A stretch of DNA of 64,000 nt from positions 1-64,000 of IMG/VR virus record IMGVR_UViG_3300005436_000501; one strand, written 5' to 3'. Position 1 is the stretch's first letter. Each line of letters opens with the position of its first letter. The notes below the pieces were generated by a model. It had not been told where the DNA came from, did no database searches, and worked only from the letters and a program-made list of their open reading frames with translations. Positions 13,628 through 42,473 of this stretch are shown piece by piece. The stretch comes from a virus. The position numbers were made by a program, and so were the translations under genes.

Positions 13628-15301
13628 TCAGCCGCGAATGAACCCGGTGACCAACTGCGGCAGCGACGCGTCGAACCCCGCGATGTTCAACGCCCCCGGA
13701 TCACCAGGATCCGCGATCGAACGACCCGTCGCCGTCATCGCCGCGACCACCGTGCGCGCATTCGGGTTCACCTGCGCCCGGTACGCCGCGAACTCCTGCA
13801 CCGGATGCGCCCGCCCCGCCCACGTCTCGTTGTCCGTGAGCACCAGCACCCCGTCGACGTTCAGCCGCTCGCGGCGCGCCCACGCATACGGCAGCGACAG
13901 ATCCGTGCCCCCGCCCGACGGGCTCCACGCCGCGACCTCGCGCAGGTTCGTGCGCCCCGTGACCCGCGACGGGCGCACTGCCGTGTCCACGTCGATCACA
14001 TGCACGTTGCCGCGCTCGATGCGCGCCATGATGACCGCCATCGCGCACCCGATCTCGTACGGCGACCCCAGCGGCGAACCGCCCACCGCGACCCGGGCAC
14101 CCCATGCGCCACCCATCGACCCGGACGAGTCCACCGCGACCAGCAGCCGCCGGCCGGAGGGCTGCACATTTCCGAACGACAACTCGTACGACTCCTCGAG
14201 GGCGTCGAGGACCGCCGGGACCGGCGCCCACGTCTGCACCTGCGCCCGCGGGTTCGGCTGGGCCCGCCCGGATGCGTACACCCGCAGCGCGAGGAACACG
14301 TCAAACGGGTGGATGCGCCCCTTGGCCAGCGACTGCGCGTCGGTGAGCCACCCTGCGGCGCGCCGGGTGGCGTCGCCCATGGGCCTGAGCGCCCCGATGC
14401 GGGTCATCCGCGCGAGGTTGCGGATCAGCGCGGTCATGCCGACGGTGTCGACCAGCGCCTCCCACACCTGCGGGGAGGTCAGGACAGCGTCGGGCAGGAA
14501 CTCCCACGGCACCTTCTGTTCCGTGACCACCCGCACCGCCTGCGCCGGGGTGGTGACGGACTTCGCGGCCAGGAACCGGTCGACGCTCGGCAGCGCGGCG
14601 CGCGCCTGCTCGTCGGCGACGTTTCCCGCGATCCACCCGAACAACGCGCGGCGCGCCTCGCTGTCGGCCTGCGGGTGGCCCAGGCGCAGCAGGTCGCGCA
14701 GCGCGAACGGCTCGCCGGTCGGGGTCTTGCGCGCCATGGCCTTGCACGCGGAGAACGCGATGTCGTCCGGCTCCCCGGCGAGCAGCAGGTCGCCGAGGGC
14801 GCCGCGCACGACCCGCCCGGTCTTCGGCGCGCTGCCGTTGCGCCCGGCGGGCTTGCCGTGCAGGTTCTTCCAGTAGCCGAAGAACGCGGCCCGGTGGTTG
14901 GTGGTGCGCGCGACCTTCGGCAGTGCGAGCCGCGCGGCGCGGCGGGTGTCGAGGTCGCCGCGGGTGATGGCGGCGGCGAGCAGGAACAGCGCGGGCTCGT
15001 TGCGCGGTGCGCGCGGCGGGCGGCTCGCGGAGACGTCCACGGCCAGGGCGACGGCGCGGGGGCCGTCCTGCGCGACGGCGCCGAACACGACGGGCACGTT
15101 GTCGAGGGTGAGTTCCTTCTCGCCGACGTAGTAGGTGCCGCCGGTGGTGCCGAGGATGAGGAAGTCTTCGAGGCGGGTGAAGGTGTCCTTGGCGAACACG
15201 TAGCCGCCTGCGGCGTTGGATACCTGGTCGGTGCGGCCGGGGATGGGCTGTGTCTGCGGGGTGCGCAGGGTGGTGACGTCCGCGAGCGGGTCACGGGGCA
15301 T
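13628..15301 (-). CDS. rsr: Ro60-family RNA-binding protein (TROVE plus vWA)
   Basis: 557 aa, close to the usual length of bacterial Rsr and human Ro60. The first about 340 residues are the HEAT-like TROVE ring; residues about 385-545 are a vWA domain with an intact MIDAS: DSSGSM (391-396), GGTDLS (464-469) and LTDN (488-491). Ro60 rings bind misfolded RNA ends in the pore and Y RNAs on the outside; in Deinococcus and Salmonella Y RNA tethers Ro60 to PNPase. GAAGGA lies 7 nt before the ATG. A YrlA-like element ends 47 nt upstream on the same strand. Phage-encoded Ro60 homologues are known. Confidence 0.92.
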   Translation of the reverse strand: MPRDPLADVTTLRTPQTQPIPGRTDQVSNAAGGYVFAKDTFTRLEDFLILGTTGGTYYVGEKELTLDNVPVVFGAVAQDGPRAVALAVDVSASRPPRAPRNEPALFLLAAAITRGDLDTRRAARLALPKVARTTNHRAAFFGYWKNLHGKPAGRNGSAPKTGRVVRGALGDLLLAGEPDDIAFSACKAMARKTPTGEPFALRDLLRLGHPQADSEARRALFGWIAGNVADEQARAALPSVDRFLAAKSVTTPAQAVRVVTEQKVPWEFLPDAVLTSPQVWEALVDTVGMTALIRNLARMTRIGALRPMGDATRRAAGWLTDAQSLAKGRIHPFDVFLALRVYASGRAQPNPRAQVQTWAPVPAVLDALEESYELSFGNVQPSGRRLLVAVDSSGSMGGAWGARVAVGGSPLGSPYEIGCAMAVIMARIERGNVHVIDVDTAVRPSRVTGRTNLREVAAWSPSGGGTDLSLPYAWARRERLNVDGVLVLTDNETWAGRAHPVQEFAAYRAQVNPNARTVVAAMTATGRSIADPGDPGALNIAGFDASLPQLVTGFIRG

Positions 15302-19776: not shown

Positions 19777-20213
19777 GTTGGCCGACTCCGGGCGTGGACC
19801 CGTGCATGCGTCTGGCGTACCGGTGGCCCGTCCGGCGGTTCAACTGGGTGCGCGCCCTGGTCGCCCGGGTGCGGCGGCGCTGCTACGGCGAGCCGTACCC
19901 GTGCGGACTGCTGCACGGGCATCCGGGGCGCTGCGTGTGGTTCACGCCCGGCGAGTATCTGAAGCTCGCCGTACCGATCCTGCATCCGCTCGAGCCGCTG
20001 CCCGGGCCGCGCGTCGGCATGCCCGACTGCCCCGACTGCGGACGGGTGGTGTTCGGGGTCGAGTGCGTCGCCGAGGGGTGGGTGGTGCGCGACGCGAACA
20101 CCGTGGCCGTGTACGAGCGGCAGGTGCCGGGTGCGGTGTATGAGCGGTGGCTGCGGTTCGACCCGTGCGACTGCGAACGCCGCGTGATCGTCCCGGCGGC
20201 GCCTAACCCGTGA
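19773..20213 (+). CDS. Cys-rich hypothetical protein, 146 aa
   Basis: Basic N-terminus, then CPDCGRV and a final CDCE, consistent with a zinc ribbon split by a beta insert. GTGA overlap upstream. Its last 11 bp overlap the end of a convergent leftward gene. Confidence 0.65.
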   Translation: MSWPTPGVDPCMRLAYRWPVRRFNWVRALVARVRRRCYGEPYPCGLLHGHPGRCVWFTPGEYLKLAVPILHPLEPLPGPRVGMPDCPDCGRVVFGVECVAEGWVVRDANTVAVYERQVPGAVYERWLRFDPCDCERRVIVPAAPNP

Positions 20214-20916
20214 CCGTGAGCGGCGGCGCGGCATGCGCCAGCATCGGCGGGTGACCCCGCAACCGCCACCCGCGGCGCTCCTTCGCGAGACCACCGCAGT
20301 AGCAGCACCGGCAGTCCTGCTTGAGCCGGTGAGACCACGACCACCCGTCGCCGGGATGCCCGGCCTCGGTCACCTTCCGGTGGTCCCACGTGTACCGCCC
20401 GGTGACGAGCAGCGGCGCGCAGTCCTCGCACACATACCCGTCGTCGTTGATCCACGCGATGCCCGAACCTGGCTCGGGTTCCTCGCGCGGACCGCAGTGG
20501 CAGTACAGCACCGTGCCCTCGTGGCTGACCCAGTGGGTGCGGTGCCAGGACTTGTGCCACGCGTCCGCGTCCGGTTCGGGGCACACGCACAGGCCCTCAA
20601 TCCGGCGTCCCTCCCGCCGGTCGTCGCAGCGGATGAGCGGCTGGTTCGGGCAGTGCGGCAGCCGCACCACCGGATACGGGCAGTCGGGCCGGGCGGCCTG
20701 TTGTTCGCACCAGGCGCGCAGCACGACGTTGCGCCACTCCCATTCGAAGATCCCGAGATGTTGCGCGGCGGCACGGTCCTCGCCCCAGGCCAGAGAGTCG
20801 GCGGGATGCCAGACGCCGCGTTTAAGCCGGTCGAGCAGCCATGTGCAGCGCTCGGAGCGCTGCGGCGGGGCCTGCCAGGATGGGTGTTCGCCGACGTCGG
20901 CGGCTGGCGGCTTCAC
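20203..20916 (-). CDS. Cys/His-rich hypothetical protein, 237 aa
   Basis: Last gene of the long leftward early region. The GTG at 20916 overlaps the upstream stop and is preferred to an upstream ATG. At least four Cys pairs (CVCPE, CHCG, CEDC, CCYCG) suggest two zinc sites. Not recognised. Confidence 0.65.
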   Translation of the reverse strand: MKPPAADVGEHPSWQAPPQRSERCTWLLDRLKRGVWHPADSLAWGEDRAAAQHLGIFEWEWRNVVLRAWCEQQAARPDCPYPVVRLPHCPNQPLIRCDDRREGRRIEGLCVCPEPDADAWHKSWHRTHWVSHEGTVLYCHCGPREEPEPGSGIAWINDDGYVCEDCAPLLVTGRYTWDHRKVTEAGHPGDGWSWSHRLKQDCRCCYCGGLAKERRGWRLRGHPPMLAHAAPPLTVTG

Positions 20917-21254
20917 CCGTGCCACGTCGCCACCTGCGCCGTCCACCATTCACGCTGCTCGGCCAGTTCTGCGTCACTCGCCTGCACCGGATACCCGATG
21001 CGTTCGCACGCGGCCCGATACCTCTCCGAGAGCAGAAACGGGACGCTGATGTCGCGCCACGACGCCGGGCCGACCAGGTCTGAGATCGCCTTGACGCGTT
21101 CGAGCAGGTTCTCCTGACCCATCGACCAGGCTCCGGCGGGTGCGCGCGAGTCGCGGGACGCGTGCTCCAGGTCCGCCCACAGGGCGACGAGTTCCGTGCG
21201 CAGCGCGGACGCCAGGTCTTCGCGGGACACCTGTTCCCACGCGTCCGTACTCAC
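20913..21254 (-). CDS. hypothetical helical protein, 113 aa
   Basis: GTG start in a GTGA overlap. All-helical with Trp near both ends, no Cys. Function unknown. Confidence 0.65.
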   Translation of the reverse strand: MSTDAWEQVSREDLASALRTELVALWADLEHASRDSRAPAGAWSMGQENLLERVKAISDLVGPASWRDISVPFLLSERYRAACERIGYPVQASDAELAEQREWWTAQVATWHG

Positions 21255-21685
21255 GCCTTCGCCTCCGACTCCCGCAGCACCTGCGCGCGGTAGGCCCGCA
21301 ACTCGGCTTCGACCGGCGGTTCGAGCGGGTCACGCGGCACCCACGCCCGGTGTGCTCCCTTGGCGATGTTCCCGGCGCGGATGTCGGCACGCAAGGCCTC
21401 GACCGCTTGGCGAGCCGCGTCCTCGGCGTCGTCCTCGATGAGTCCGAGCGCGTACACGCTCCACCCGATCTCGATCGCGTCGCCGCTGCGCCGGAACCAG
21501 CTCGGCGATTCGAACCGGTCAGCCTGGATCAGCACGTACGGCCGCTCGACCAGGGTGTGCGCCTCGTCCACCGTCACGGCGACGCGGGTGAACGTCCAGG
21601 TTTCGGAGTCATCCATGTCGTAGAGGCTGACGGTCGTCGAGCAGCCGAACACCTCGACCGTGACGGGTGTTCTACGGGTGCGCAT
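21251..21685 (-). CDS. hypothetical protein, 144 aa
   Basis: Beta-rich first half and helical second half. Downstream coupling by GTGA overlap. Not recognised. Confidence 0.65.
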   Translation of the reverse strand: MRTRRTPVTVEVFGCSTTVSLYDMDDSETWTFTRVAVTVDEAHTLVERPYVLIQADRFESPSWFRRSGDAIEIGWSVYALGLIEDDAEDAARQAVEALRADIRAGNIAKGAHRAWVPRDPLEPPVEAELRAYRAQVLRESEAKA

Positions 21686-21688
21686 CTC

Positions 21689-22180
21689 TCAGTGGCCCGC
21701 ATCGTGTCGCCCCTGACGGCGCCCCTGCTCGTACGCAGCCGCGATATGACCCGGCCCGAATCCGGGTGGCTGCGCCGGCGTGCTCGGCGAACCCGCCATG
21801 TTGATCTGGATCGGGTTACGCCCGTCCACGCGCTGCCGCCACCGGCGCAGGCATGCTGTCGGGTCCCGCGCGTCGGCCGCCTCGTCGAGCATCTGCCACC
21901 GCTCGTCCACGCTCAGGCGCGCAGCCCACGGCAAGACCGCGAGTAGTGGGATCGACGCCTTTGACAGTGACGGATGCCCGTCCTGCATGACCGTGGTGCG
22001 CCAGAACCCGAACTCCGGATCCGGGCGGGGCGGCTCGGACGCATGTCCGCAGCGGCCCCACACGAGCGTGTGGGTTCCGGTCGTGCGGCAGTCGCGGGAG
22101 CAGCCGTCGAAGTCGCCGGAAGGCGGGGGTGCGGCGTCGGGCATGGCTCCGAGTGTTGCACGCCCCGCAACACGGCTCAC
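21689..22180 (-). CDS. hypothetical protein, 163 aa
   Basis: GTG in a GTGA overlap chosen as start; an internal ATG at 22144 is possible. A CSRDC pair near residue 28 and a Pro-rich tail. Function unknown. Confidence 0.6.
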   Translation of the reverse strand: MSRVAGRATLGAMPDAAPPPSGDFDGCSRDCRTTGTHTLVWGRCGHASEPPRPDPEFGFWRTTVMQDGHPSLSKASIPLLAVLPWAARLSVDERWQMLDEAADARDPTACLRRWRQRVDGRNPIQINMAGSPSTPAQPPGFGPGHIAAAYEQGRRQGRHDAGH

Positions 22181-22704
22181 AGCCCCCGGCGCTGCGGGAA
22201 GCGGCGTATGTGCACGCGCAGGAAGTCGGCCGGCCCGAGCTCGACGGGCGCGCTGAGCGGCACGAGGAAGCCCGATCCCGCGGCCACGGGCTCACCCCGG
22301 TACGCGACCGCGTCCAGTAGTTCCCCGAACCGCCCGGTGACGAGCAGGACTCTGCCGGGCCGGATCTCCCCGTCCCGGTACGCGCCCAGGGTTCGGGCGT
22401 GCGCGTTGGTGTTGTCGACGTGCTCGACGATCGCGACGTACGGCCAGCCGTGCGGCACGCGTCCGCCGACGCGCAACCCGAGGGTGGCGAGGGTCAGTGG
22501 CGGGAACGCTTTGCCCGCGCAGAACGCGTGGGCGGGCACGCCCCGGTAGCGGCTCGCGGCGGTCGGCGCCGGGTCCGACTCGCCGCACAGCGGGCACTGC
22601 CCCGGCGCGCACGGCCATGCGGCGGGTTCGGCGAGCCAGAGCCGGTGGCGCAGCAGCCGGTCACGGGACGCGCGCGGCGACAGGGTGAAGCCGGGGCGCA
22701 GCAT
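22177..22704 (-). CDS. hypothetical protein with CPLC motif, 175 aa
   Basis: CPLCGES near residue 37, then a beta-rich body. First gene after an 87-bp gap, so it may have its own promoter. Not recognised. Confidence 0.6.
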   Translation of the reverse strand: MLRPGFTLSPRASRDRLLRHRLWLAEPAAWPCAPGQCPLCGESDPAPTAASRYRGVPAHAFCAGKAFPPLTLATLGLRVGGRVPHGWPYVAIVEHVDNTNAHARTLGAYRDGEIRPGRVLLVTGRFGELLDAVAYRGEPVAAGSGFLVPLSAPVELGPADFLRVHIRRFPQRRGL

Positions 22705-22791
22705 GCTGTGACGGTATCGGGCGGCGGCGACGGTGCGCGGCGAGGTGACGTGACCGTGACCCGCAACCGGGGTGGCGCGGGCTGGCGCGGA

Positions 22792-22998
22792 TCAGGCTGC
22801 TTGCGTCCGGGCGCCAGGGCCGACCCAGCCGGCTTCCAGTTCCACGACCAGGCGCCGCAGCAGTCCCGGCACCCCGCATGAGCACGGGCCGGGCTCGTCC
22901 TCGTCGAACCGCTCGCACAGGTCGTGGTGACAGGACTCTGCGTCTTCGCCCGCGGCTATGAGGTCGGCGCGCAGGTCTGCGGACAGCTCGGTCGGCAC
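22792..22998 (-). CDS. small acidic Cys/His protein, 68 aa
   Basis: Begins VPTELSADLRADL at a GTG; longer readings add only Arg-rich shadow sequence. Contains CHHDLCE and CSCG, a likely metal site. Divergent from the FxSxx-like peptide operon. Confidence 0.55.
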   Translation of the reverse strand: MPTELSADLRADLIAAGEDAESCHHDLCERFDEDEPGPCSCGVPGLLRRLVVELEAGWVGPGARTQAA

Positions 22999-23310
22999 GC
23001 TCCTGTTGTACCCGTATCCGCCGACAGGCGCAGCGAAAACACCCGGACCGGTGCCGCGCCGCCAGAGCGCCACGGGGTGGGTGTGCTGGCCGGTGCGGGC
23101 GTGCGTCGCAGTGTTCGCGCCCGCCGACCGGGTGGCGAACGGCGGCGAACCCGCGCAGAGCACGCCACAGGGCGCGTGCGCCGCGCTACGCTGGGCCTGC
23201 GCGGCTCGATCTCCCCGGATCGCCGCGTGCCCCCCGAGGTCCGCACGCACGGACCCGCCGCCCCGGCCCAGCCCCGTGAGCCGGGGCGGCACCGCACCCG
23301 GAGGACTCTC
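22999..23310 (+). promoter_or_regulatory. leader region of the FxSxx-like peptide operon
   Basis: No coding signal. A TACGCT -10-like element lies near 23190. A 9-bp stem CCGCCCCGG/CCGGGGCGG (23258-23289) ends 11 nt before the ribosome site GGAGGA, so it could act as an attenuator or RNA switch. Confidence 0.4.
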
Positions 23311-23490
23311 GTGGACAGCCCCGCCGAAACCGCCGCAGACGCGGGCCGTGCGCTGGTGTCCGCGACCCTCGACGTGCGTGAGGTGCCGCTGGACCGGCTG
23401 CGCGGCGAGCACCAGAACCCCGCGCCAGCCGACAGCGGCGGCGCGACCCGCCCCGTGCTGCCCATGGCGGCGTTCAACGCGAGCCTCTAG
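23311..23490 (+). CDS. FxSxx-COOH-like RiPP precursor, variant tail
   Basis: 59 aa, GTG start with GGAGGA. DVREVPLDRL mid-peptide and the C-terminus PMAAFNASL resemble the FXSXX-COOH family, precursors of radical-SAM (FxsB-type) ring-forming maturases. Here the last five residues are FNASL, so Ser is one position later than in the family signature. No maturase is in the window. Its neighbour carries the exact motif. Confidence 0.6.
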   Translation: MDSPAETAADAGRALVSATLDVREVPLDRLRGEHQNPAPADSGGATRPVLPMAAFNASL

Positions 23491-23498
23491 GAGCACCC

Positions 23499-23672
23499 AT
23501 GAACCACGACACCGGGCGTGAGGCGTCCACGGTCGCAGACACGCGCACGGTGCCGCTGCGGACGCTGCTGACGCGCACGCGGGTGGGCGCCGGGTCGGAC
23601 GCTCCGGCGCGGGTCACGGGCGAAGGCGGCCCCGGGGTGCTCCCGAAGGCCGCCTTCACATCCGCGATCTGA
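23499..23672 (+). CDS. FxSxx-COOH RiPP precursor
   Basis: 57 aa, AGGAG 5 nt upstream. Shares the layout of the gene before it (DTRTVPLRTLL; PKAAFTSAI) and ends FTSAI, matching F-x-S-x-x-COOH exactly. In this family the C-terminal three-residue motif is the site of cyclophane crosslinking by a radical SAM enzyme; which would have to be supplied from outside the window. Neither peptide has a signal sequence. Confidence 0.7.
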   Translation: MNHDTGREASTVADTRTVPLRTLLTRTRVGAGSDAPARVTGEGGPGVLPKAAFTSAI

Positions 23673-23679
23673 CAGCCCC

Positions 23680-23782
23680 CTACGCGTCCGGGTCCACGAA
23701 CGTCGCGTACGTGTCGATGCTCTTCTGCCGCCCCGCGAACACGGCGCACACCTGCAATCTCGCGCCGCGTCGGCTTAGACAT
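23680..23782 (-). pseudogene. possible frameshifted small gene
   Basis: MSKPTRREIAG starts at an ATG overlapping the upstream stop (ATGTCTAA); a natural-looking C-terminus VCAVFAGRQKSIDTYATFV ending at a TAG at 23680 is in another frame. Length 103 nt is not a multiple of three. If real, it is broken by a one-base indel; otherwise chance. Confidence 0.3.
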
Positions 23783-24302
23783 CGGGAACCTCCGGTTCGC
23801 TCGCGGCGATGTCCGCGAGCACCTGCAACTCGCCCACGCCCTCGAAGTCGGCCATGTCCACCGCCGTCTCGGCGATGCGCTGCGCGTAGTCGCTGAACCG
23901 GGTCGAGTCCAACACCAGCACGAGCGAATGGTCCGCGTCCCAGCCGCGCCGGATCTTCGTGTCGTGGCGCCAGTGCGACGCCTCCGGGTACTGCTCGTGG
24001 AGCACCCAGCCGCGCGCCGCCAGATACGCCCGCAGCCGACCGGGGGAGTGCACGGCGGGGTCGATCAGCGGTTCGAGGCTGCGCGGCACGATCCGCAGCG
24101 ACCGGGCCTGGTCGAGCAGCGCCAGTACCGCCTCCATGTCGGTGCGGTCCAGCGCGTACACCCCGCGCGGCCACTCCTGCGAGCGGAACGCGTCATTGTG
24201 GACCAACTCGCTGCCGAGGTTGTGCACCTCGGGGCCGAGTTCGGCCAGCAGGGCACGGATGCGCTGCTCGGCGTGCACAGTGCCATGCCTGCGCTCAGCC
24301 AT
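23775..24302 (-). CDS. hypothetical protein, 175 aa
   Basis: Start ATG overlaps the upstream stop. Mixed alpha/beta, no Cys. Contains HWRHDTKIRRGWD. Not recognised. Confidence 0.65.
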   Translation of the reverse strand: MAERRHGTVHAEQRIRALLAELGPEVHNLGSELVHNDAFRSQEWPRGVYALDRTDMEAVLALLDQARSLRIVPRSLEPLIDPAVHSPGRLRAYLAARGWVLHEQYPEASHWRHDTKIRRGWDADHSLVLVLDSTRFSDYAQRIAETAVDMADFEGVGELQVLADIAASEPEVPDV

Positions 24303-24609
24303 TGACCGGCTCCGCTCCTATGGGAACCTCGACCCACTTCCCGACGTGGTGGACGCGGTGCGCGACCACCCACGCGCCGGCGGGCATGAGCGCGACGAAC
24401 TCGCGTGCGTCCGCCTCGTCGTCGCATGGTTTGTCCACGGCACTGCCGTCCGCTGCGCGATGCACCGCCGCCCATTCGATCGAGGGAGGCCCGAGCAAGT
24501 CGAGTAGCGCGTCGACCACGTCCGGGAGTTGCTCGCGCGCTTCGAGCCCGTCGGTGGTGTCCGCGCGGGCCGCAGCAGCCAAGGCACGCGCCCGCGCCGT
24601 GTCGATCAC
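24295..24609 (-). CDS. hypothetical protein, 104 aa
   Basis: GTG in a GTGA overlap with the MazG-like gene. Acidic; helical first half, beta-rich second half. Function unknown. Confidence 0.65.
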   Translation of the reverse strand: MIDTARARALAAAARADTTDGLEAREQLPDVVDALLDLLGPPSIEWAAVHRAADGSAVDKPCDDEADAREFVALMPAGAWVVAHRVHHVGKWVEVPIGAEPVNG

Positions 24610-25310
24610 TTCGCCGCCCCTTCCGGCCGGGCCGCGAACAGGATCGGCCGGTTGCCCATCACCGTGCGCTCCTCGACACCCCACCCGGCCTTACGCAGCG
24701 TCTCGGCGTAGGCCGCGGCGGCAGCGATCCGGGCCTCGCACCGCTCCTCGAAGTTCGCCCGGTTCGGGTCGGACAGGTCGGACTCGGGCAGCTTGTGCTC
24801 GACGCGCACCGCGCCGAGGCGGTTGGACGCTTCGACCTTGTAGCCGGGTGTCACGACGCTGCCGTACTCGTTGTAGCCCGCGGGTTCGTGCGCCGCGCCC
24901 CAGAGTTCGGCGGCGGCGTCGAGGATCAGCGCGCGCCCCCGCTCGTCGAGGTCGGCCATCACGCCACCGCTTCCACGCTCGGCCGCACGTCCGCGCGCGA
25001 CGATCCCCGCGACCTTCGCCGCGAGCACACCCCGGGTCACGTCCGCGTCCCGGGTGAAGTGCTGCATCGCGCACAGCGCCGTGAGCGCCACGTCCGCGAG
25101 CTCCGCCAGCAGGTCCGCCTGGGTGTGGGTGACGCCCTTGCGCGGATTCTGGCCCACCATCCCGATGTACGCGGCGGCGGCCTCCCCGGCTTCCTCGACC
25201 AGTTTCAGGACCCGCATGGAGTCCTCGTGCGGACTGTCCGGGTTGGAGCGGTCCAGCCACGCCGTGATGTCCGCGACATCCGCGAACAGGTCCCGGGTCT
25301 CGCCGTGCAT
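24606..25310 (-). CDS. MazG-like nucleotide pyrophosphohydrolase fusion
   Basis: 234 aa. The first about 105 residues have the all-alpha NTP-pyrophosphohydrolase pattern: KLVEEAGEAAAA (ExxE) and LAELADVALTAL (ExxD), which bind Mg and the triphosphate. Phages use such enzymes to adjust dNTP pools or alarmones. The remaining 115 residues, starting MADLDERGR with an in-frame Met, are an unassigned domain; no stop separates them, so this is a fusion or two genes merged by loss of a stop. Confidence 0.7.
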   Translation of the reverse strand: MHGETRDLFADVADITAWLDRSNPDSPHEDSMRVLKLVEEAGEAAAAYIGMVGQNPRKGVTHTQADLLAELADVALTALCAMQHFTRDADVTRGVLAAKVAGIVARGRAAERGSGGVMADLDERGRALILDAAAELWGAAHEPAGYNEYGSVVTPGYKVEASNRLGAVRVEHKLPESDLSDPNRANFEERCEARIAAAAAYAETLRKAGWGVEERTVMGNRPILFAARPEGAAK

Positions 25311-25666
25311 CACTCGCTCCCCTCGCCGGCCGCCGCGACGACCCCGGCCGCGCGCAACCGCCGGGTTCGTTCGCGCGCCTCCGCACTCGCGTCATGCCTA
25401 GTGCACCCGCAGCCGCCCACGTCACGGCCCTGCTTCGCCGCCGCGATCGACTCGCGCGAACGCTTGCCGCCCCAATGGCAGCGGCCCTCCACGCAGTCCC
25501 CGCACGTGGCCTCGATGTCCAGCCACATGAGCGCCTCGAGCAGCGCCGTGCGCTTGGGCTCGTAGTCGCCAAGTTCCGGGTCGAGCAGCACCTCGCCGAG
25601 CGCCTCGGCAGCCGCTTCACACCTGAGCTGGTAGGCGTCCATGCGGGCGCCGATGTCGCCGGTCAT
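25310..25666 (-). CDS. Cys-rich hypothetical protein, 118 aa
   Basis: ATG in a TGATG overlap with GGGAG 6 nt upstream. CGDCVEGRCHWGG and CGCTRH suggest a zinc site. Not recognised. Confidence 0.6.
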   Translation of the reverse strand: MTGDIGARMDAYQLRCEAAAEALGEVLLDPELGDYEPKRTALLEALMWLDIEATCGDCVEGRCHWGGKRSRESIAAAKQGRDVGGCGCTRHDASAEARERTRRLRAAGVVAAAGEGSE

Positions 25667-26058
25667 CACTCGCTCCCTTCGGGCCAGGCCAGTCGCGGCT
25701 TCACGGTAACGACATCCCGGCCGCGCACCAGGTACCGCGACGGCGGCTCACCGAACCCCGGATCCCAGTCCACCTGGATGTGGCCCGCGAACTCGTGGTC
25801 GCCCGCGAACAACTCGACGAGCGCCCTGATCTGCGCCTCGACCTCGTGGCCGCTGCACGCCTGCTCGGGGCCGACGATCGCGTCCGCGGTGTACACCACC
25901 AGCGTTCCGGCGTCGGTTTCGGTTTCGCGCCGGTCGATACGCAGGTGCGCGTCCCATGCGGCGCTTGCGCCGACACCGCCGGGGGCGCGGCGGATCTCGG
26001 CGGCGGTCAGTAGCGGCGTGATGGTGATCGCGCCGCTGTAACGGTTCTCATAACTCAC
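25666..26058 (-). CDS. DUF6205-like protein
   Basis: 130 aa. The MSYENRYSGAITITPLLTAAEIR start and WPEGSE end resemble Streptomyces DUF6205 proteins, whose function is unknown. Beta-rich. Family match is from memory of conserved ends. Confidence 0.55.
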   Translation of the reverse strand: MSYENRYSGAITITPLLTAAEIRRAPGGVGASAAWDAHLRIDRRETETDAGTLVVYTADAIVGPEQACSGHEVEAQIRALVELFAGDHEFAGHIQVDWDPGFGEPPSRYLVRGRDVVTVKPRLAWPEGSE

Positions 26059-26060
26059 GG

Positions 26061-26195
26061 TCAGTGTCCTGTCTTGTCGGTGTTCGCTGGTGCTTGCTGT
26101 TCGCGGTCCTGGATGCGCTGGCCGAGCAGGACCCGCGCGGCGGCACGGTCGCCCACGGCCAGGGCTTTGAGGATCGCGTGCTCGGCGGCGGTCAC
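26061..26195 (-). CDS. small hypothetical protein, 44 aa
   Basis: VTAAEHAILKALAVGD..., GTG in a GTGA overlap with the coiled-coil gene. Helical. Longer readings upstream are shadow sequence. Confidence 0.5.
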   Translation of the reverse strand: MTAAEHAILKALAVGDRAAARVLLGQRIQDREQQAPANTDKTGH

Positions 26196-26635
26196 GACGC
26201 GGACCCGGCCCGCTTGGCGAGCAACGCGGCGAGTTCGCGCGCCGCCGGACTCCCAGCCTCGGCGAGCGCCGCCCACAACTCGTCGGCGAACACGAACTTC
26301 TTACGGTCCTCGTTGGTCCACACCCTCAGCGCCTCGACACGGCGCACGGCCTCGCGGGTCTCCTTGACCTCCCGGCTCAGCCGCTCGTTCGCCTTTACCT
26401 GCGCGTCGAGTTGGCGGCGCAGTTCACGGATCAGGCCCTCGTGGCGCTGCTCCTGGCGTGCTGCTGCGGCACGTACTTCCGCGATGCGTGCGTCTGCGTC
26501 TCCCTCGACGGCGCGGATCTGCGGTTCGGCGATCTCCTGTGCGCGCCGCTGGATGTACCCGCCCAGGTTCTGCGTGGCCACGGCCAGGTTCTCGGCCGCC
26601 TCCGCGAGCAGGTACGGCGCCGGATCGGCGGCCAT
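26192..26635 (-). CDS. coiled-coil protein, 147 aa
   Basis: Residues about 30-105 are a continuous charged helix (RRAQEIAEPQIRAVEGD to KETREAVRRVEAL) predicted to form a coiled coil. ATG in a TGATG overlap. Likely a scaffold or oligomeric small protein; unknown. Confidence 0.65.
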   Translation of the reverse strand: MAADPAPYLLAEAAENLAVATQNLGGYIQRRAQEIAEPQIRAVEGDADARIAEVRAAAARQEQRHEGLIRELRRQLDAQVKANERLSREVKETREAVRRVEALRVWTNEDRKKFVFADELWAALAEAGSPAARELAALLAKRAGSAS

Positions 26636-27066
26636 CACTCGTCGTCCGTTCGCGGCGTCGGCCACCGCTCGCGGCACGCAGCCTTGTTCGCGCACTCGGT
26701 CATGCTGCGCGCGGACACGACAACCTTCCCGTCGTGGATCACGTCGCCGTCCGGGAACGCCACGAACCCGCGCGTCCCGGTCCGCCCGCACTGGTGGCAG
26801 CGCCGCTGCGCGTCCGCGTCGACCGGGACGCGCTCGATCTCGACCCCGGTGGGCCACGCCTGCTCGCCGTCGTCCGCGACCTGCCGCAGCCGGCCCGTGG
26901 CCTCGTCGCGGGAGTAGGTGTAGGCGTAGCACTCGGTGTCGCCACAGAACTGGGCGTGCTGCCTGTACGCGTCCACGGCCGCAGTCTTCGCGGCGCGCAG
27001 CAGCGGCTTGTGGGCGAACACCACACCGGTCTTCGGGTGCGTCACACGCCAGAGCATCGCGGTCAC
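26635..27066 (-). CDS. zinc-ribbon-like protein, 143 aa
   Basis: GTG in a GTGA overlap. CHQCGRTG plus an upstream CGDTEC give a plausible zinc site; the N-terminus LWRVTHPKTG is beta-rich. Not recognised. Confidence 0.65.
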   Translation of the reverse strand: MTAMLWRVTHPKTGVVFAHKPLLRAAKTAAVDAYRQHAQFCGDTECYAYTYSRDEATGRLRQVADDGEQAWPTGVEIERVPVDADAQRRCHQCGRTGTRGFVAFPDGDVIHDGKVVVSARSMTECANKAACRERWPTPRTDDE

Positions 27067-27434
27067 CGGGACGCCGCCTTCAATTCGTCGCGGATCTCGT
27101 TCAGGGCCGTGTCGAGCCGGTCGAGCTCCGCGGCCCACGGCGACGACTCGGGCAGCGCCTCACCCGCGTCGATCGAGCACGCCGCTTCCACGGCGTCGGC
27201 CAGGGTCTCGAACGCGGTACGCCAGCGGTCGCAACTGCCGCCGAGGGCCACGACGGCGCGGGTCGCGGCATCCAACTTCGCAGTGAGATCGTCCCGTTCC
27301 TTGAGCGTGAAACGCAGGTCGCCGTACGTCAGGTCGTAGCCGACCACGTCGTACACGGGCGTGTCGTCTCCGCCTGCACCGTTGGCTTCCTCGCAGTCAA
27401 GGAAGCTGCGCAGGCGGTCGGATCCGGTGGTCAT
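27063..27434 (-). CDS. hypothetical helical protein, 123 aa
   Basis: Acidic, helical, with a possible coiled coil between residues 45 and 70. ATG start. Unknown. Confidence 0.65.
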   Translation of the reverse strand: MTTGSDRLRSFLDCEEANGAGGDDTPVYDVVGYDLTYGDLRFTLKERDDLTAKLDAATRAVVALGGSCDRWRTAFETLADAVEAACSIDAGEALPESSPWAAELDRLDTALNEIRDELKAASR

Positions 27435-27446
27435 GTACTGCTCCTT

Positions 27447-27788
27447 CTATTGCGGTTCGGTGATGGTGACGACGATGCGGTCCTCGTCCTTCTCCAGGAC
27501 CGCGGCGGTGTACGCGAACACCGGGGTCAGGCGCCCGTGGGCGACGGCCCAGCCGGTGCGGGCGGGCTCGGTGCCGTGCTCGGCGCGGTACACCTTCGCG
27601 GCGACCCTCCCGAAGCTCGACGAGAACCGGCGCCGGAACTCGCTGTCGGCGCCGAGCGCGGCGAGGTAGTCGGCGGCGGTCAGGACGGCGCGGTTGCGGT
27701 AGGCGGCGATGGCGCGCAGCCAGTGGGTGCCGGGCTTGGTGCTGCGGGTGCGCGGCGCCTTGCGCTGGTGGTCCATCGGCTGCTTCAT
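27447..27788 (-). CDS. hypothetical basic protein, 113 aa
   Basis: Start at the ATG 8 nt after GGGGG; another ATG at 27806 is possible. Basic N-terminus, helical middle. Divergent from the HTH protein across a region with three operator-like sites, so probably controlled by it. Confidence 0.6.
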   Translation of the reverse strand: MKQPMDHQRKAPRTRSTKPGTHWLRAIAAYRNRAVLTAADYLAALGADSEFRRRFSSSFGRVAAKVYRAEHGTEPARTGWAVAHGRLTPVFAYTAAVLEKDEDRIVVTITEPQ

Positions 27789-37320: not shown

Positions 37321-38406
37321 TCAGGCCGCCTTCGCCGCTTTGAGCGCCCTGGCGATGTCCGCCAGAACGGGTGCCTTGCCGGGCAGCGGGACCTTGTTGG
37401 CGGCAGCCCACTCGCGCAACTTGTCGCGACCCAGACCGCCCGGCGCCCCAGCCGCCACGAGGGCGTCTACGTGCCGCTGGATCGTCGCGTGGTGATCCAT
37501 CAGCGGACCGGGATCGGTCAACTCGTGGTTGGTACATCCCGGCAGCCATCCGCCGCCGCCCATCTCGCGTACTGCGCGGCGAGTGATGTCAAAGCTGTCC
37601 TGGCCGAGTCCTGACCGTGAGTGGGTTCGGCGCATCTTCAGGTTGGTGATGATCGTCTCTAGGCCGGCCTCGCGGTCGTATTCGTGACGCGGATCCTCAG
37701 CGGTAAACGTGAGTTCCCAGACCTGGTCGACGTCCTGCGCCTTGGCGGATGACCCGCGGGAGCCCTTCTCCTCGTCCTTGCCCATATGGTCGAGGCGGAT
37801 CCCGGCGACCCCGAGCCGCTTGAGCGGCGCGTGCACGAGCCGGTAGAACGACAGCCACGTGTCCGAGTCGTTCTCTTTCCCCGCGATGAACCGGGAGATC
37901 GTGTCGAAGACGACCAGGTCGGGCTTGCTCTGCTCGACGATGTCGAGCAGTTCGGCAACCGCGATGGCCGACTGATCGAGCGCGCCGCTGAAACTCGGGA
38001 AGAGCCGGTAGTCGAGCCCTTCCAGCTCGCGAGGTACGGCGCCGAAGCTGACCATGCGCGTGACGACGTCGCGCAGGTTGTTCTCGCGGTCGAAGTAGAG
38101 GACGCGCAGCGGTTCGTGGCGTTCGTCGGACAGGAATCGCCGTCCGGTGACGATGCGCCAGATCCAATCGTGGACGAGCAGGGTCTTGCCGACCTTCCCG
38201 CCGCCGACGAGCGCCGTTTGCTGGCCGTGTTCCATGAACTTGCCTGGGAGCCAGTTGACCTCGCTGAAGTCCGTGGCGAACGCGGACTCCCAATCGATGC
38301 GCGGGAATCGTTCCCGCTTCTCGTCTTCGGAGACGGGCGGGTCGATCTCCCGCCACGGGTCTTCGTCGGGCGGGAGGCCGGTGTTCGGGATGGCCTGCAT
38401 GGTCAC
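37321..38406 (-). CDS. RepA/DnaB-like replicative helicase ATPase
   Basis: 361 aa. Walker A GGGKVGKT (68-75), Walker B PDLVVFDT (162-169), then RLDHMGKD and GSRGSSAK, the order seen in RSF1010-RepA type (AAA_25) helicases. A short winged or helical C-terminus (DALVAAGAPGGLGRDKL) follows. GTG in a GTGA overlap with the primase gene; ATG at 38400 is possible. Acts with the adjacent prim-pol. Confidence 0.82.
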   Translation of the reverse strand: MTMQAIPNTGLPPDEDPWREIDPPVSEDEKRERFPRIDWESAFATDFSEVNWLPGKFMEHGQQTALVGGGKVGKTLLVHDWIWRIVTGRRFLSDERHEPLRVLYFDRENNLRDVVTRMVSFGAVPRELEGLDYRLFPSFSGALDQSAIAVAELLDIVEQSKPDLVVFDTISRFIAGKENDSDTWLSFYRLVHAPLKRLGVAGIRLDHMGKDEEKGSRGSSAKAQDVDQVWELTFTAEDPRHEYDREAGLETIITNLKMRRTHSRSGLGQDSFDITRRAVREMGGGGWLPGCTNHELTDPGPLMDHHATIQRHVDALVAAGAPGGLGRDKLREWAAANKVPLPGKAPVLADIARALKAAKAA

Positions 38407-39395
38407 CGGCCACCGGCCTTGGCCATGGCGGTGCGCCACGCGTCGTCGATCTCGCGGCTGTCGCGCCCGGCCGTGTATCCGGCGTCGCGGATCGCGTCGA
38501 GCGCCTGATCCTCGGTAACCCGGCCGTCCGCGACGAGATGCGCCGCCGCGGTCGTGGCGGTGCACAGTTGGGCGTGACGGGTGCCCTCGGGTTCGACTGC
38601 GAGCCGCTGGGCGATGCCGTCGAGGATGCGCAGCCCCGCCCCGTCGTCGGCTTCGGCCCGCGGCCGGTAGTCGCGTCTGGCGCGGGGTTCGGGCATGTGC
38701 CCGGTGGCCTTGAGGTGGTGAAGGAGCCATTCGGGCGCCCGCGCGGGTTCGGTGACGTCGCCGAGGCGGGTGTAGCGCCCGGCCGGTTTGGCGGAGGTGG
38801 GGGCGACGATGAACGCGCCCGCGCTCTTGACGTCGACGAGCGGGCCGAACGCCCCGGCGAGGGACTTGATGGTCAGTCCGCGCGGGATGCGCCAGTACAG
38901 GTGCAGTCCCCCGGAGGGTGTGGCGACCATCATCGTGTCGTCCGGCCAGGGCAGCGATGCGCGGTCGGGGGTGCGGTAGCGGATCAGGGCGAGCGCGAAG
39001 ATGTCGTAGCCGTCGTTGACGCCTTCGATCTGACAACTGGGGTCTTCGATCTTGCCGTGGCTATTCGTGTCGAGGTCGATGACGAGCAGGTGGGCCGGGC
39101 CGGTGGCGATGCCGAGGTTCATCTGCGGGAACCGCTCGCACCAGGTTTCGAAGCGGTCGTGGTCGAGGGTTCCGGCGCGCCAGCCGTGGCAGTAGTCCAG
39201 CGGGTGCGGGCAGTCTTCGGGTCCGACGTGCGGGACGCGCTTGGGGGACTTGCTGCTGCACAGTTCGCAGGCCATGGGCCGGGACTGGCCGGGGACGAGG
39301 GGCAGCACGGGCCAGCCTCGTTGGATGAAGGCGTGACCGGCCCGCCTACGGCGCTCGTGGTCGCTGGCGGGCCGGGTGTCTGCGGGGTCGGTCAC
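38403..39395 (-). CDS. bifunctional primase-polymerase (prim-pol)
   Basis: 330 aa. N-terminal prim-pol domain: FIQRGWPVLPLVPG, catalytic VIDLDT (DxD, 107-109), SGGLHLYW (His at 165) and KSAGAFIVAP. Four Cys at 43, 46, 62 and 69 form a zinc insertion common in this family. A C-terminal helical region follows. Primes and possibly extends DNA for the neighbouring helicase. GTG chosen because GGAG lies 8 nt upstream. Confidence 0.85.
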   Translation of the reverse strand: MTDPADTRPASDHERRRRAGHAFIQRGWPVLPLVPGQSRPMACELCSSKSPKRVPHVGPEDCPHPLDYCHGWRAGTLDHDRFETWCERFPQMNLGIATGPAHLLVIDLDTNSHGKIEDPSCQIEGVNDGYDIFALALIRYRTPDRASLPWPDDTMMVATPSGGLHLYWRIPRGLTIKSLAGAFGPLVDVKSAGAFIVAPTSAKPAGRYTRLGDVTEPARAPEWLLHHLKATGHMPEPRARRDYRPRAEADDGAGLRILDGIAQRLAVEPEGTRHAQLCTATTAAAHLVADGRVTEDQALDAIRDAGYTAGRDSREIDDAWRTAMAKAGGR

Positions 39396-40408: not shown

Positions 40409-41017
40409 TCACGCCGCCTCCTCGTGCTCGAAGCGGGCGGAACGAGCAGCCTGGTACGCGTACGACACGCCGCCGTCACGCGGCACGAACGGCGCCAACG
40501 CCTCCTTCGGCGCAGTCAACTCCGCGTCCAACGCCCACCGGAACTCCTCATCCGAGGACCGCGAGCGCACCAGCCGCGCCCGGTGCTGCATGTGGCGCAC
40601 GAACGCCCAGCGGCTCTCCACCGCGTACGGCTCGATGTCGTACGCCGGATCCTGGTACGGGTCGAGCCCCAACCAGGTCCACGCATGGTCGGCGGGCCGC
40701 GGGATCGGGCCGAGCAGCAGCAGCCGCGGACCCGGCGTGGGTGCGGGCATCTCGGGCAGGCTGATCGCGGCGGCTTCGAGCCGGCGGCGGTCGAGGTCCG
40801 CGTCGGAGCCCTTTATCTCGGCCCAGGTGCCGTGGTCGGTGAGCAGGAAGTCGGGCAGGTAGAGGCTTGTGGAGCCGGAGCGGTCTTCGATGGCGAATCC
40901 CTGGGGTTCGTATTCCCAGCGGATGCGCAGGGCGTCGAAGCAGGTCGCCCATCGTGCTTCGAGCCGGGAGCGGAACCGGCAGCCGGCGTACTTGGTCTCG
41001 ACCGGTTGAATCTTCAC
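40409..41017 (-). CDS. PD-(D/E)XK nuclease-like protein, 202 aa
   Basis: FRSRLEARWATCF (Glu20), YLPDFLL (Asp56) and AEIKG (Glu67, Lys69) fit the restriction-endonuclease-like core. Similar small nucleases are common on actinophages and may cut host or branched DNA. GTG in a GTGA overlap. Confidence 0.65.
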   Translation of the reverse strand: MKIQPVETKYAGCRFRSRLEARWATCFDALRIRWEYEPQGFAIEDRSGSTSLYLPDFLLTDHGTWAEIKGSDADLDRRRLEAAAISLPEMPAPTPGPRLLLLGPIPRPADHAWTWLGLDPYQDPAYDIEPYAVESRWAFVRHMQHRARLVRSRSSDEEFRWALDAELTAPKEALAPFVPRDGGVSYAYQAARSARFEHEEAA

Positions 41018-41220
41018 CCGGCACCGCCCGAATAACAGTCCCCGAGGTATTCGGCCAGCAGGTCGGACGACCATCGGTGGCGGCAGCGCGGGCACCGGTA
41101 TTCGCACCTGATCCACGCGCCGATCTGGACTCTCGACGCGGGCAGTACGAACCGCGCGCTCTCGCAGGCGTAGCAGCGGTCCGAGAACGGGGGAGCGGGC
41201 AGCGCGACCAGGCTCGTCAT
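41014..41220 (-). CDS. small zinc-ribbon protein, 68 aa
   Basis: CYACES and CEYRCPRCRHRW form a two-knuckle zinc ribbon. Coupled to the nuclease-like gene by GTGA. Unknown role. Confidence 0.6.
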   Translation of the reverse strand: MTSLVALPAPPFSDRCYACESARFVLPASRVQIGAWIRCEYRCPRCRHRWSSDLLAEYLGDCYSGGAG

Positions 41221-41639
41221 GACGGGTCAGCCGCCCTCGGCGGCCGGAATGCGCTACAGGTCTCGTCTCCCGCGATGTCCCAGGTCATCCCGTCGAAGTC
41301 GACGCCGACGGGTTGCGTGCGGCCGTTGTCGTAGACGAGCCACATATGGACGGGCAGTCGCTCTTTGTAGCCATCCCGCTTGAAGGTCCAGCCGCCGCCC
41401 GGGAGTGCTGCGACCACCCGGGGTCCCGCGGTATCCGGTGGGGTCGTCCGCGCGCCGACAGGCTGGGCCGCGTCGGCGATTGCGTCGATCAGGTCGTCCG
41501 TGTGGTCGTCGAGCCACACGCTGAACGCCGTCCCGAGTGCCTTGGTGATGAGTTCCGGGATGCTGACGGGGTGTTCGTTGAGCCAGTCGCTCCACGCCCC
41601 GGCCACACCCTCAGCGGTCGCGTCGCCTTTGCTGGTCAT
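41217..41639 (-). CDS. hypothetical protein, 140 aa
   Basis: Helical first half with repeated Trp, beta-rich second half. ATGA overlap downstream. Not recognised. Confidence 0.65.
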   Translation of the reverse strand: MTSKGDATAEGVAGAWSDWLNEHPVSIPELITKALGTAFSVWLDDHTDDLIDAIADAAQPVGARTTPPDTAGPRVVAALPGGGWTFKRDGYKERLPVHMWLVYDNGRTQPVGVDFDGMTWDIAGDETCSAFRPPRAADPS

Positions 41640-41941
41640 GGTCGTCTACTCCTTGTCTTGTCGGCGGTGTCTGGTATCGCGAAGAGCGAGTCCTGCCCGG
41701 GCGGCCCGTTGGGCTCCGGCCGGGAGGTGCCGCGCGTCCTGGCTCGCGCCGCTCCGGTGGCGCACTTGTGCCGGTGGTGGCCGAGGTGCCCCTGCGGGGT
41801 GCGCCACGCCGCGACGACCTCGGCCTTGGTGAACCCGGTCCCGTCCGCTTTGAGCACGCCGAGGCGTGTCGGGTCCGGGTCGAGCAGCCCCGATGGGGTC
41901 GCGAGGACCGGGGCGGCGCAGGACGGGCAGGCGTCAGGCAT
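41636..41941 (-). CDS. CxxC hypothetical protein, 101 aa
   Basis: MPDACPSCAAP start in an ATGCCTGA overlap; a later HLGHHRHKC completes a possible zinc site. Disordered tail. Unknown. Confidence 0.6.
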   Translation of the reverse strand: MPDACPSCAAPVLATPSGLLDPDPTRLGVLKADGTGFTKAEVVAAWRTPQGHLGHHRHKCATGAARARTRGTSRPEPNGPPGQDSLFAIPDTADKTRSRRP

Positions 41942-42473
41942 CCGGGTCACCCCCGAGGTCCAGCGCCCCGCGAACCCGCCGCGCACACGCGTCGAAGCCC
42001 GCCTGCCAGGCGTCAATGCCCGCGCCGTCGTCCGCGTCAAGCCACGCCAGCAGCGGCATCCCGACCCACACGGTCAACGCGAGCAGCGAGCACAGGTCCG
42101 GCGCGATCGCACCGGTCTCGATGCGGCTGATGGTGGTGTCCGCCTGGCAATACCGGTGCAAGTCCCCCGCCTCGCCCGGACCCGACGCCCGCTGCGCGTG
42201 CCAGCACGACGTGGACAGGTAGGCGTGGCCCCGCTTGGGCGCGCCCTCGTCGGGCACGATCCAGCCCTCGAAGGTGCGCACGATCCACTCCTGGTCGACC
42301 GCGAGCGCGAGCAGCGCGAACGTGTTCGCCACCCCCGCGCGCTCACAGGCGCGTTGTAAACGCCGGTACAGCCCGTCCTGCGAGGTCCCGTCGCGGCTGG
42401 CGACCGCCCTGAGCGGCTGCCCGTCGGCGATGCGGGCCGGGTTCCAGCGGTCCCGCATGATCGGTGCGGTCAT
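41934..42473 (-). CDS. XRE-like hypothetical protein, 179 aa
   Basis: The segment DTTISRIETGAIAPDLCSLLAL near residue 120 resembles the recognition half of a Cro/C1 helix-turn-helix, followed by MPLLAWL. The first half is unassigned. ATGA overlap upstream. Confidence 0.5.
   Translation of the reverse strand: MTAPIMRDRWNPARIADGQPLRAVASRDGTSQDGLYRRLQRACERAGVANTFALLALAVDQEWIVRTFEGWIVPDEGAPKRGHAYLSTSCWHAQRASGPGEAGDLHRYCQADTTISRIETGAIAPDLCSLLALTVWVGMPLLAWLDADDGAGIDAWQAGFDACARRVRGALDLGGDPDA

Follow-up and report, generated by a model that had tools for sequence, protein, structure and literature searches.

Why would a phage carry the precursors of a modified peptide and not the enzyme that modifies them? 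The question is raised by two adjacent open reading frames (ORFs) in a 64,000-nucleotide stretch of DNA (below, the window: the whole stretch that was analyzed), which belongs to a viral record of 127,094 bp, IMG/VR IMGVR_UViG_3300005436_000501 (G000). An initial annotation had described the two ORFs as FxSxx-COOH-like precursors in a mobile element. This description is supported by reciprocal profile searches, by the phage genes of the record, and by the absence of FxsB, the maturase of such peptides. From sequence comparison, we conclude with high confidence that the two encoded peptides are divergent homologues of FxsA, the precursor of an FxSxx-COOH cyclophane ribosomally synthesized and posttranslationally modified peptide (RiPP). 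We further consider it likely that they are phage-borne orphan FxsA precursors that act through the FxsB of the host.

Two FxsA-like genes in a phage record

The two ORFs, with the parts of their products that recall FxsA, are as follows.

23311 to 23490, plus strand: peptide 1 ORF; GTG start, 59 amino acids (aa), FxsA-like, ending ...VLPMAAFNASL; core F-N-A-S-L, with Ala at i+2
23499 to 23672, plus strand: peptide 2 ORF; ATG start, 57 aa, FxsA-like, ending ...VLPKAAFTSAI; core F-T-S-A-I, which fits FxSxx-COOH
23383 to 23400, plus strand: leader motif VPLDRL (VPLxxL) of peptide 1, common to bacterial FxsA
23550 to 23567, plus strand: leader motif VPLRTL (VPLxxL) of peptide 2, common to bacterial FxsA
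23473 to 23487, plus strand: predicted core FNASL of peptide 1
23655 to 23669, plus strand: predicted core FTSAI of peptide 2

The lengths of 59 and 57 aa and the tails AAFNASL and AAFTSAI given in the initial annotation are those of ORFs at exactly these positions. It was also right about the tails: that of peptide 2 reads FTSAI and meets the F-x-S-x-x-COOH motif, and that of peptide 1 reads FNASL, an FxASx ending in which Ser comes one residue late and the motif is not satisfied.

The curated model of FxsA, TIGR04268 (cut-off, 28 bits), is blind to the window peptides; neither this model nor the other NCBIfam and Pfam models gave anything relevant for them, even at an E value of 10. Homology was therefore tested in three other ways: through relatives of the phage (described below), with reciprocal profiles, and by the coincidence of motifs. 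The cut-off is a strict one, because L190, a bacterial peptide encoded next to FxsB, fails it too, reaching just 14.1 bits. Two peptides from other viral records exceed it (G024, 30.5 bits; G025, 29.5 bits). The profile check that the initial annotation had proposed thus came out negative for the window peptides themselves and positive for homologues in other phages.

In the first of the profile searches, a hidden Markov model (HMM) was built without the window pair, from bacterial FxsA and the other phage peptides, and was run on 27,015 frames. Peptide 2 was the top frame outside the training set (E = 0.0014); peptide 1 came fourth among the nontraining frames (E = 0.2), and ahead of it, besides peptide 2, were a true bacterial FxsA and one frame that matched by chance. 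Conversely, when an HMM of the window pair alone was run on 2,795 frames from 60 bacterial loci, FxsA genes beside FxsB made up 17 of the top 20 matches. Finally, a profile of 17 phage peptides gave 93 matches in 77 of 200 Streptomycetaceae genomes; 76 of these matches are no more than 1 kb from a listed FxsB gene, and 14 more lie within 20 kb. Homology to FxsA is therefore supported in both search directions. Across the 1,821 frames of the record, an FxSxx-like tail occurs in 2 and VPLxxL in 10, and the two motifs coincide only in these adjacent ORFs; the patterns were drawn up after the peptides had been seen, so this overlap is descriptive and the weight rests on the reciprocal profile tests.

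Both ORFs were picked independently by a codon-model gene caller. Their GC contents at third codon positions are 0.92 (peptide 1) and 0.90 (peptide 2), and among 3,245 wrong-frame windows, 0% scored as well as peptide 1 and 1.4% as well as peptide 2. The peptides are short and their single-sequence scores are weak, as would be expected if they were accidental ORFs of GC-rich DNA with a fortuitous likeness to FxsA, but that explanation is contradicted by the reciprocal profile tests, with the motif overlap and the coding statistics also against it, and we give it next to no credence.

The signals that accompany the two ORFs are listed here.

23300 to 23304, plus strand: Shine-Dalgarno sequence GGAGG of peptide 1
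23489 to 23493, plus strand: Shine-Dalgarno sequence AGGAG of peptide 2, sharing nucleotides with the TAG stop codon of peptide 1
23257 to 23290, plus strand: leader hairpin just upstream of the ORFs, with arms at 23257 to 23270 and 23277 to 23290 that are 93% complementary

Because the Shine-Dalgarno sequence of peptide 2 overlaps the stop codon of peptide 1, the pair is probably translationally coupled. The initial annotation had the pair transcribed against the surrounding operon, behind a hairpin leader. Indeed, the called neighbors on either side (20203 to 22998 and 23775 to 27788) are both on the minus strand, the inverted repeat just upstream is a strong one, and the leader folds better than its shuffles (z = -2.9). 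An Rfam scan of the window gave no match, and no exporter or immunity gene was recognized among the neighbors tested with Pfam.

The record itself comes from a phage, judging by its gene content: its terminase large subunit, tape measure protein, and integrase match PHROGs. The integrase is of the serine-recombinase type, suggesting that the phage is probably temperate. This soil phage probably infects Streptomyces-like bacteria. A 424-aa protein of the record matches an unnamed PHROG family, and relatives of it are encoded on contigs of phages and prophages; we take it as the putative capsid protein. A maturase, reported missing in the initial annotation, is absent from the whole 127-kb record, in which no FxsB was found.

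How close, then, are the window peptides to known families? They and their phage homologues resemble the TIGR04268 FxsA peptides, the partners of the radical SAM/SPASM enzyme FxsB (TIGR04269), in their length of 42 to 62 aa, in their VPLxxL or SLAxLA leader, in the C-terminal A-F-x-S-[SA]-[ILV], and in the reciprocal profile matches. They differ in that the phage records lack FxsB and often have the genes in tandem, that the window peptides fall below the cut-off, and that peptide 1 ends in FxASx. Since the tail of peptide 1 departs from the motif, both peptides are under the cut-off, and the defining partner gene, FxsB, is absent, we regard them as relatives of FxSxx-COOH precursors and not as canonical members, although the evidence suggests that they would work in the manner of FxsA. 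The SjiA family (NF040585, FXSXX-COOH cyclophane-modified RiPP) is matched weakly by phage homologues from G008, G016 (peptide a), G022, G024, and G025, all far under its 75-bit cut-off; the window peptides do not match it.

Recurrence in viral records

Relatives of the phage by capsid and by MazG-like gene carry similar small ORFs. A coupled tandem pair in G003, with tails FNSSL and FQSSI, has the same arrangement of Shine-Dalgarno sequence and stop codon as the pair in the window; G008, G011, G013, and G014 have single peptide genes, and G015/G016 have a tandem pair. Scans of IMG/VR with DNA patterns for FNSS and FQSS tails gave 11 matches, nine of which are further FxSxx peptides; the other two (L093 and L097) were rejected, as they are without a VPLxxL-type leader. 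Searches for relatives that started from peptide 2 or from the neighbor genes at 23775 to 24302 and 22177 to 22704 found none. Altogether, 19 peptides of this type (18 of them complete) are spread over 17 viral records, that of the window included, making this a recurrent gene type and not a single oddity. FxsB (TIGR04269) gave no match in any of these 17 records.

Head, packaging, or tail genes were identified with PHROGs in G000, G011, G014, G016, G022, G024, and G025, and the phage nature of G003, G008, and G013 is indicated by head, packaging, or tail genes homologous to those of the window phage. In G003, G011, and G013, the peptide gene closes an FtsK-type operon, which is not so in the window, and no neighbor gene was found to be conserved at all peptide loci.

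Most phage homologues, like peptide 2, retain the full FxSxx core. The copies in G024 and G026 differ by five synonymous substitutions and one nonsynonymous substitution, which points to purifying selection on the translated product. These observations bear on whether the genes are captured host genes that have no current role and are decaying in the window phage. Decay would account for the departure of peptide 1 from the core motif and for scores of both window peptides under the profile threshold. On the other hand, the ORFs are intact, stand in tandem, and have good Shine-Dalgarno sites and codon usage; the same coupled pair is present in G003, and the G024/G026 pair appears to be under selection. 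We therefore consider decay very improbable.

Several other genes of the phage deserve mention. A Ro60-type protein with a TROVE domain and a Ro60 vWA domain is encoded at 13628 to 15301 of the window (minus strand); its homologue in G013 is 80% identical, and more distant ones occur in G008 and G014. As to a possible Y-RNA in the vicinity, the Rfam scan of the window was empty. Plasmid-like genes, read from their translations as encoding FtsK-like, DUF2637-like membrane, and primase/polymerase-like proteins, lie at 103554 to 109402 of the record and at 38403 to 39308 of the window. The FtsK relative in G003 is the only plasmid-like gene confirmed with Pfam; the phage may combine traits of phages and of conjugative elements. 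An SGNH-type hydrolase with a signal peptide, likewise read from translation, is encoded within the tail gene region (record positions 65832 to 67007, minus strand).

The host maturase and the proposed role of the peptides

The nearest relative of the putative capsid protein with a cultured host is on a 101-kb Actinacidiphila contig (84% identity). FxsB, which the initial annotation had suggested looking for in hosts, is present above the cut-off in 161 of 200 genomes of the family to which Actinacidiphila belongs, Streptomycetaceae (about 80%), and in two of the four sequenced actinobacteria that have capsid relatives. The initial annotation was to be abandoned if neither a profile match nor an FxsB-bearing host turned up; as it is, there are phage homologues that pass the FxsA model and many genomes with FxsB in the family of the likely host.

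In Actinacidiphila acididurans (G018), FxsB, a peptide beta-hydroxylase, and FxSxx_TPR are encoded in a row (C22:79034-85026; L125 and L126), and the Actinacidiphila FxSxx_TPR protein has TIR, NB-ARC, and TPR domains. The approximately 500 bp upstream of the Actinacidiphila FxsB gene show no evident FxsA ORF; the A. acididurans maturase locus may thus be without a nearby precursor of its own. Elsewhere on the same contig (C22:71692-72099; L125:11692-12099), a YxD-tail cyclophane peptide (NF041709) adjoins a SAV_2336-type protein, a MoxR-like ATPase, and a trypsin-like protein, a neighborhood that resembles the ternary conflict systems of PMC7159879. FxSxx peptides have been placed in actinobacterial conflict systems with TIR/AP-ATPase/TPR effectors and were proposed to be a toxin or an amplifying signal (Kaur et al. 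2020, PMC7159879). The peptide type is the same in those modules and in the phages, but the modules are bacterial loci, and here the precursor is found alone on a phage.

With its TPR repeats and its position next to FxsB, FxSxx_TPR could be a sensor of unmodified peptides, which would then be ligands of a TPR protein, either this one or a phage regulator, for example in lysis-lysogeny signaling that would in principle be arbitrium-like. A regulator-like family of 450 aa is encoded within 3 kb of the peptide gene in G013 and G023, with a homologue about 7 kb off in G008. The first two copies (G013:20063-21451 and G023:53845-55206) are 51% identical; the third is at 41017 to 42396 of G008. However, no Pfam model matches the 450-aa protein, nor is it encoded near the remaining peptides, those of the window included, and F and Ser are strictly conserved, as a crosslinking enzyme would demand. 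We judge a ligand role to be quite unlikely.

More probable than a ligand role, yet still unlikely in our view, is lysogenic conversion, in which host FxsB would mature the phage peptide into a product (a signal, an antibiotic, or a means of superinfection exclusion) that benefits the lysogen. The serine-recombinase-type integrase of a probably temperate phage, the full FxSxx core kept in peptide 2 and in most phage homologues, and the frequency of FxsB in the host family are all in keeping with this. Against it, no exporter or immunity gene was recognized among the neighbors tested with Pfam, and the Ala in peptide 1 is hard to explain if a working product were intended.

We take MscB to be a member of the FxsB family, the type of enzyme that handles FxSxx. 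It links Phe with the Cbeta of the Ser at i+2 (PMC11002830). Ala at i+2 occurs in peptide 1 and also in the G014 peptide (2 of 17 phage peptides), and the exact pattern of the FNASL end has no occurrence in viral contigs. With so few cases, the change is no more than suggestive, and a different crosslink, a loss of function, or a role as an inhibitor could lie behind it.

We therefore return to the reading that we favor, namely, orphan precursors that depend on the host. Action of the peptides through host FxsB is the natural inference from homologous, coding, and conserved precursors in phages that lack a maturase, and we hold it to be probable. Several results weigh against it, the silence of TIGR04268 on the window peptides being one. 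All of 50 bacterial FxsA peptides encoded beside FxsB have Ser at i+2, the position of Ala in peptide 1. No promoter-like site was found for the peptide pair. Neither the cultured phages of INPHARED nor the plasmids of PLSDB gave a convincing match, although tblastn is weak for 55-aa peptides. (Queries with either peptide in plasmids and with peptide 2 in phages gave nothing or chance matches; the match in Nonomuraea was inspected and rejected as chance.) On the host side, two of the actinobacteria with capsid relatives (G019 and G021) have no FxsB; no genome was found that has both a peptide-bearing phage and FxsB; no FxSxx peptide was seen in the prophage sequence fetched from G018 to G021; and PADLOC did not recognize the host FxSxx_TPR protein and hydroxylase as defense proteins.

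If host FxsB is the partner, events might run as follows. In an FxsB-positive host, the leader of the expressed peptides would be bound by host FxsB, which would give peptide 2 (F-T-S) a Phe-Ser cyclophane; peptide 1, with Ala at i+2, would be modified differently or would block the enzyme. In the most speculative step, the peptides would compete with host FxsA and jam the FxsB/TIR-NB-ARC-TPR (FxSxx_TPR) system, thus serving as a counterdefense decoy. Such interference with the host FxSxx system is the role that we tentatively prefer over a lysogen product or a ligand, although we think it somewhat less likely than not; both the modification and the anti-immune function are what we infer only. 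The complete scheme, in which a family of phage orphan precursors exploits the host maturase, FxSxx peptides are crosslinked, paired FxASx peptides are uncrosslinkable inhibitors, and the host immune-type system is disarmed, would amount to counterdefense by substrate mimicry; taken as a whole, it is possible but doubtful.

The likeness to phage anti-immune decoys lies in this hypothesis of a decoy or competitor directed at a host immune-type system, and intracellular lanthipeptides of Streptomyces are known to act against phages (reviewed in PMC12360287). In the open-access literature, we found no decoy built from an orphan RiPP precursor, no published phage-borne FxSxx peptide, and no family of phage orphan RiPP precursors that needs a host maturase. 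As far as this literature shows, the peptides would be the first such family.

FxsB and FxSxx peptides are widespread, and the loci examined adjoin TPR proteins with immune-type domains. If our reading is true, the peptide system of FxsB-bearing hosts would be tied to phage-host conflict or to lysogeny, as the phages carry the substrate only, and the FxASx variants could be used as mechanistic probes of FxsB.
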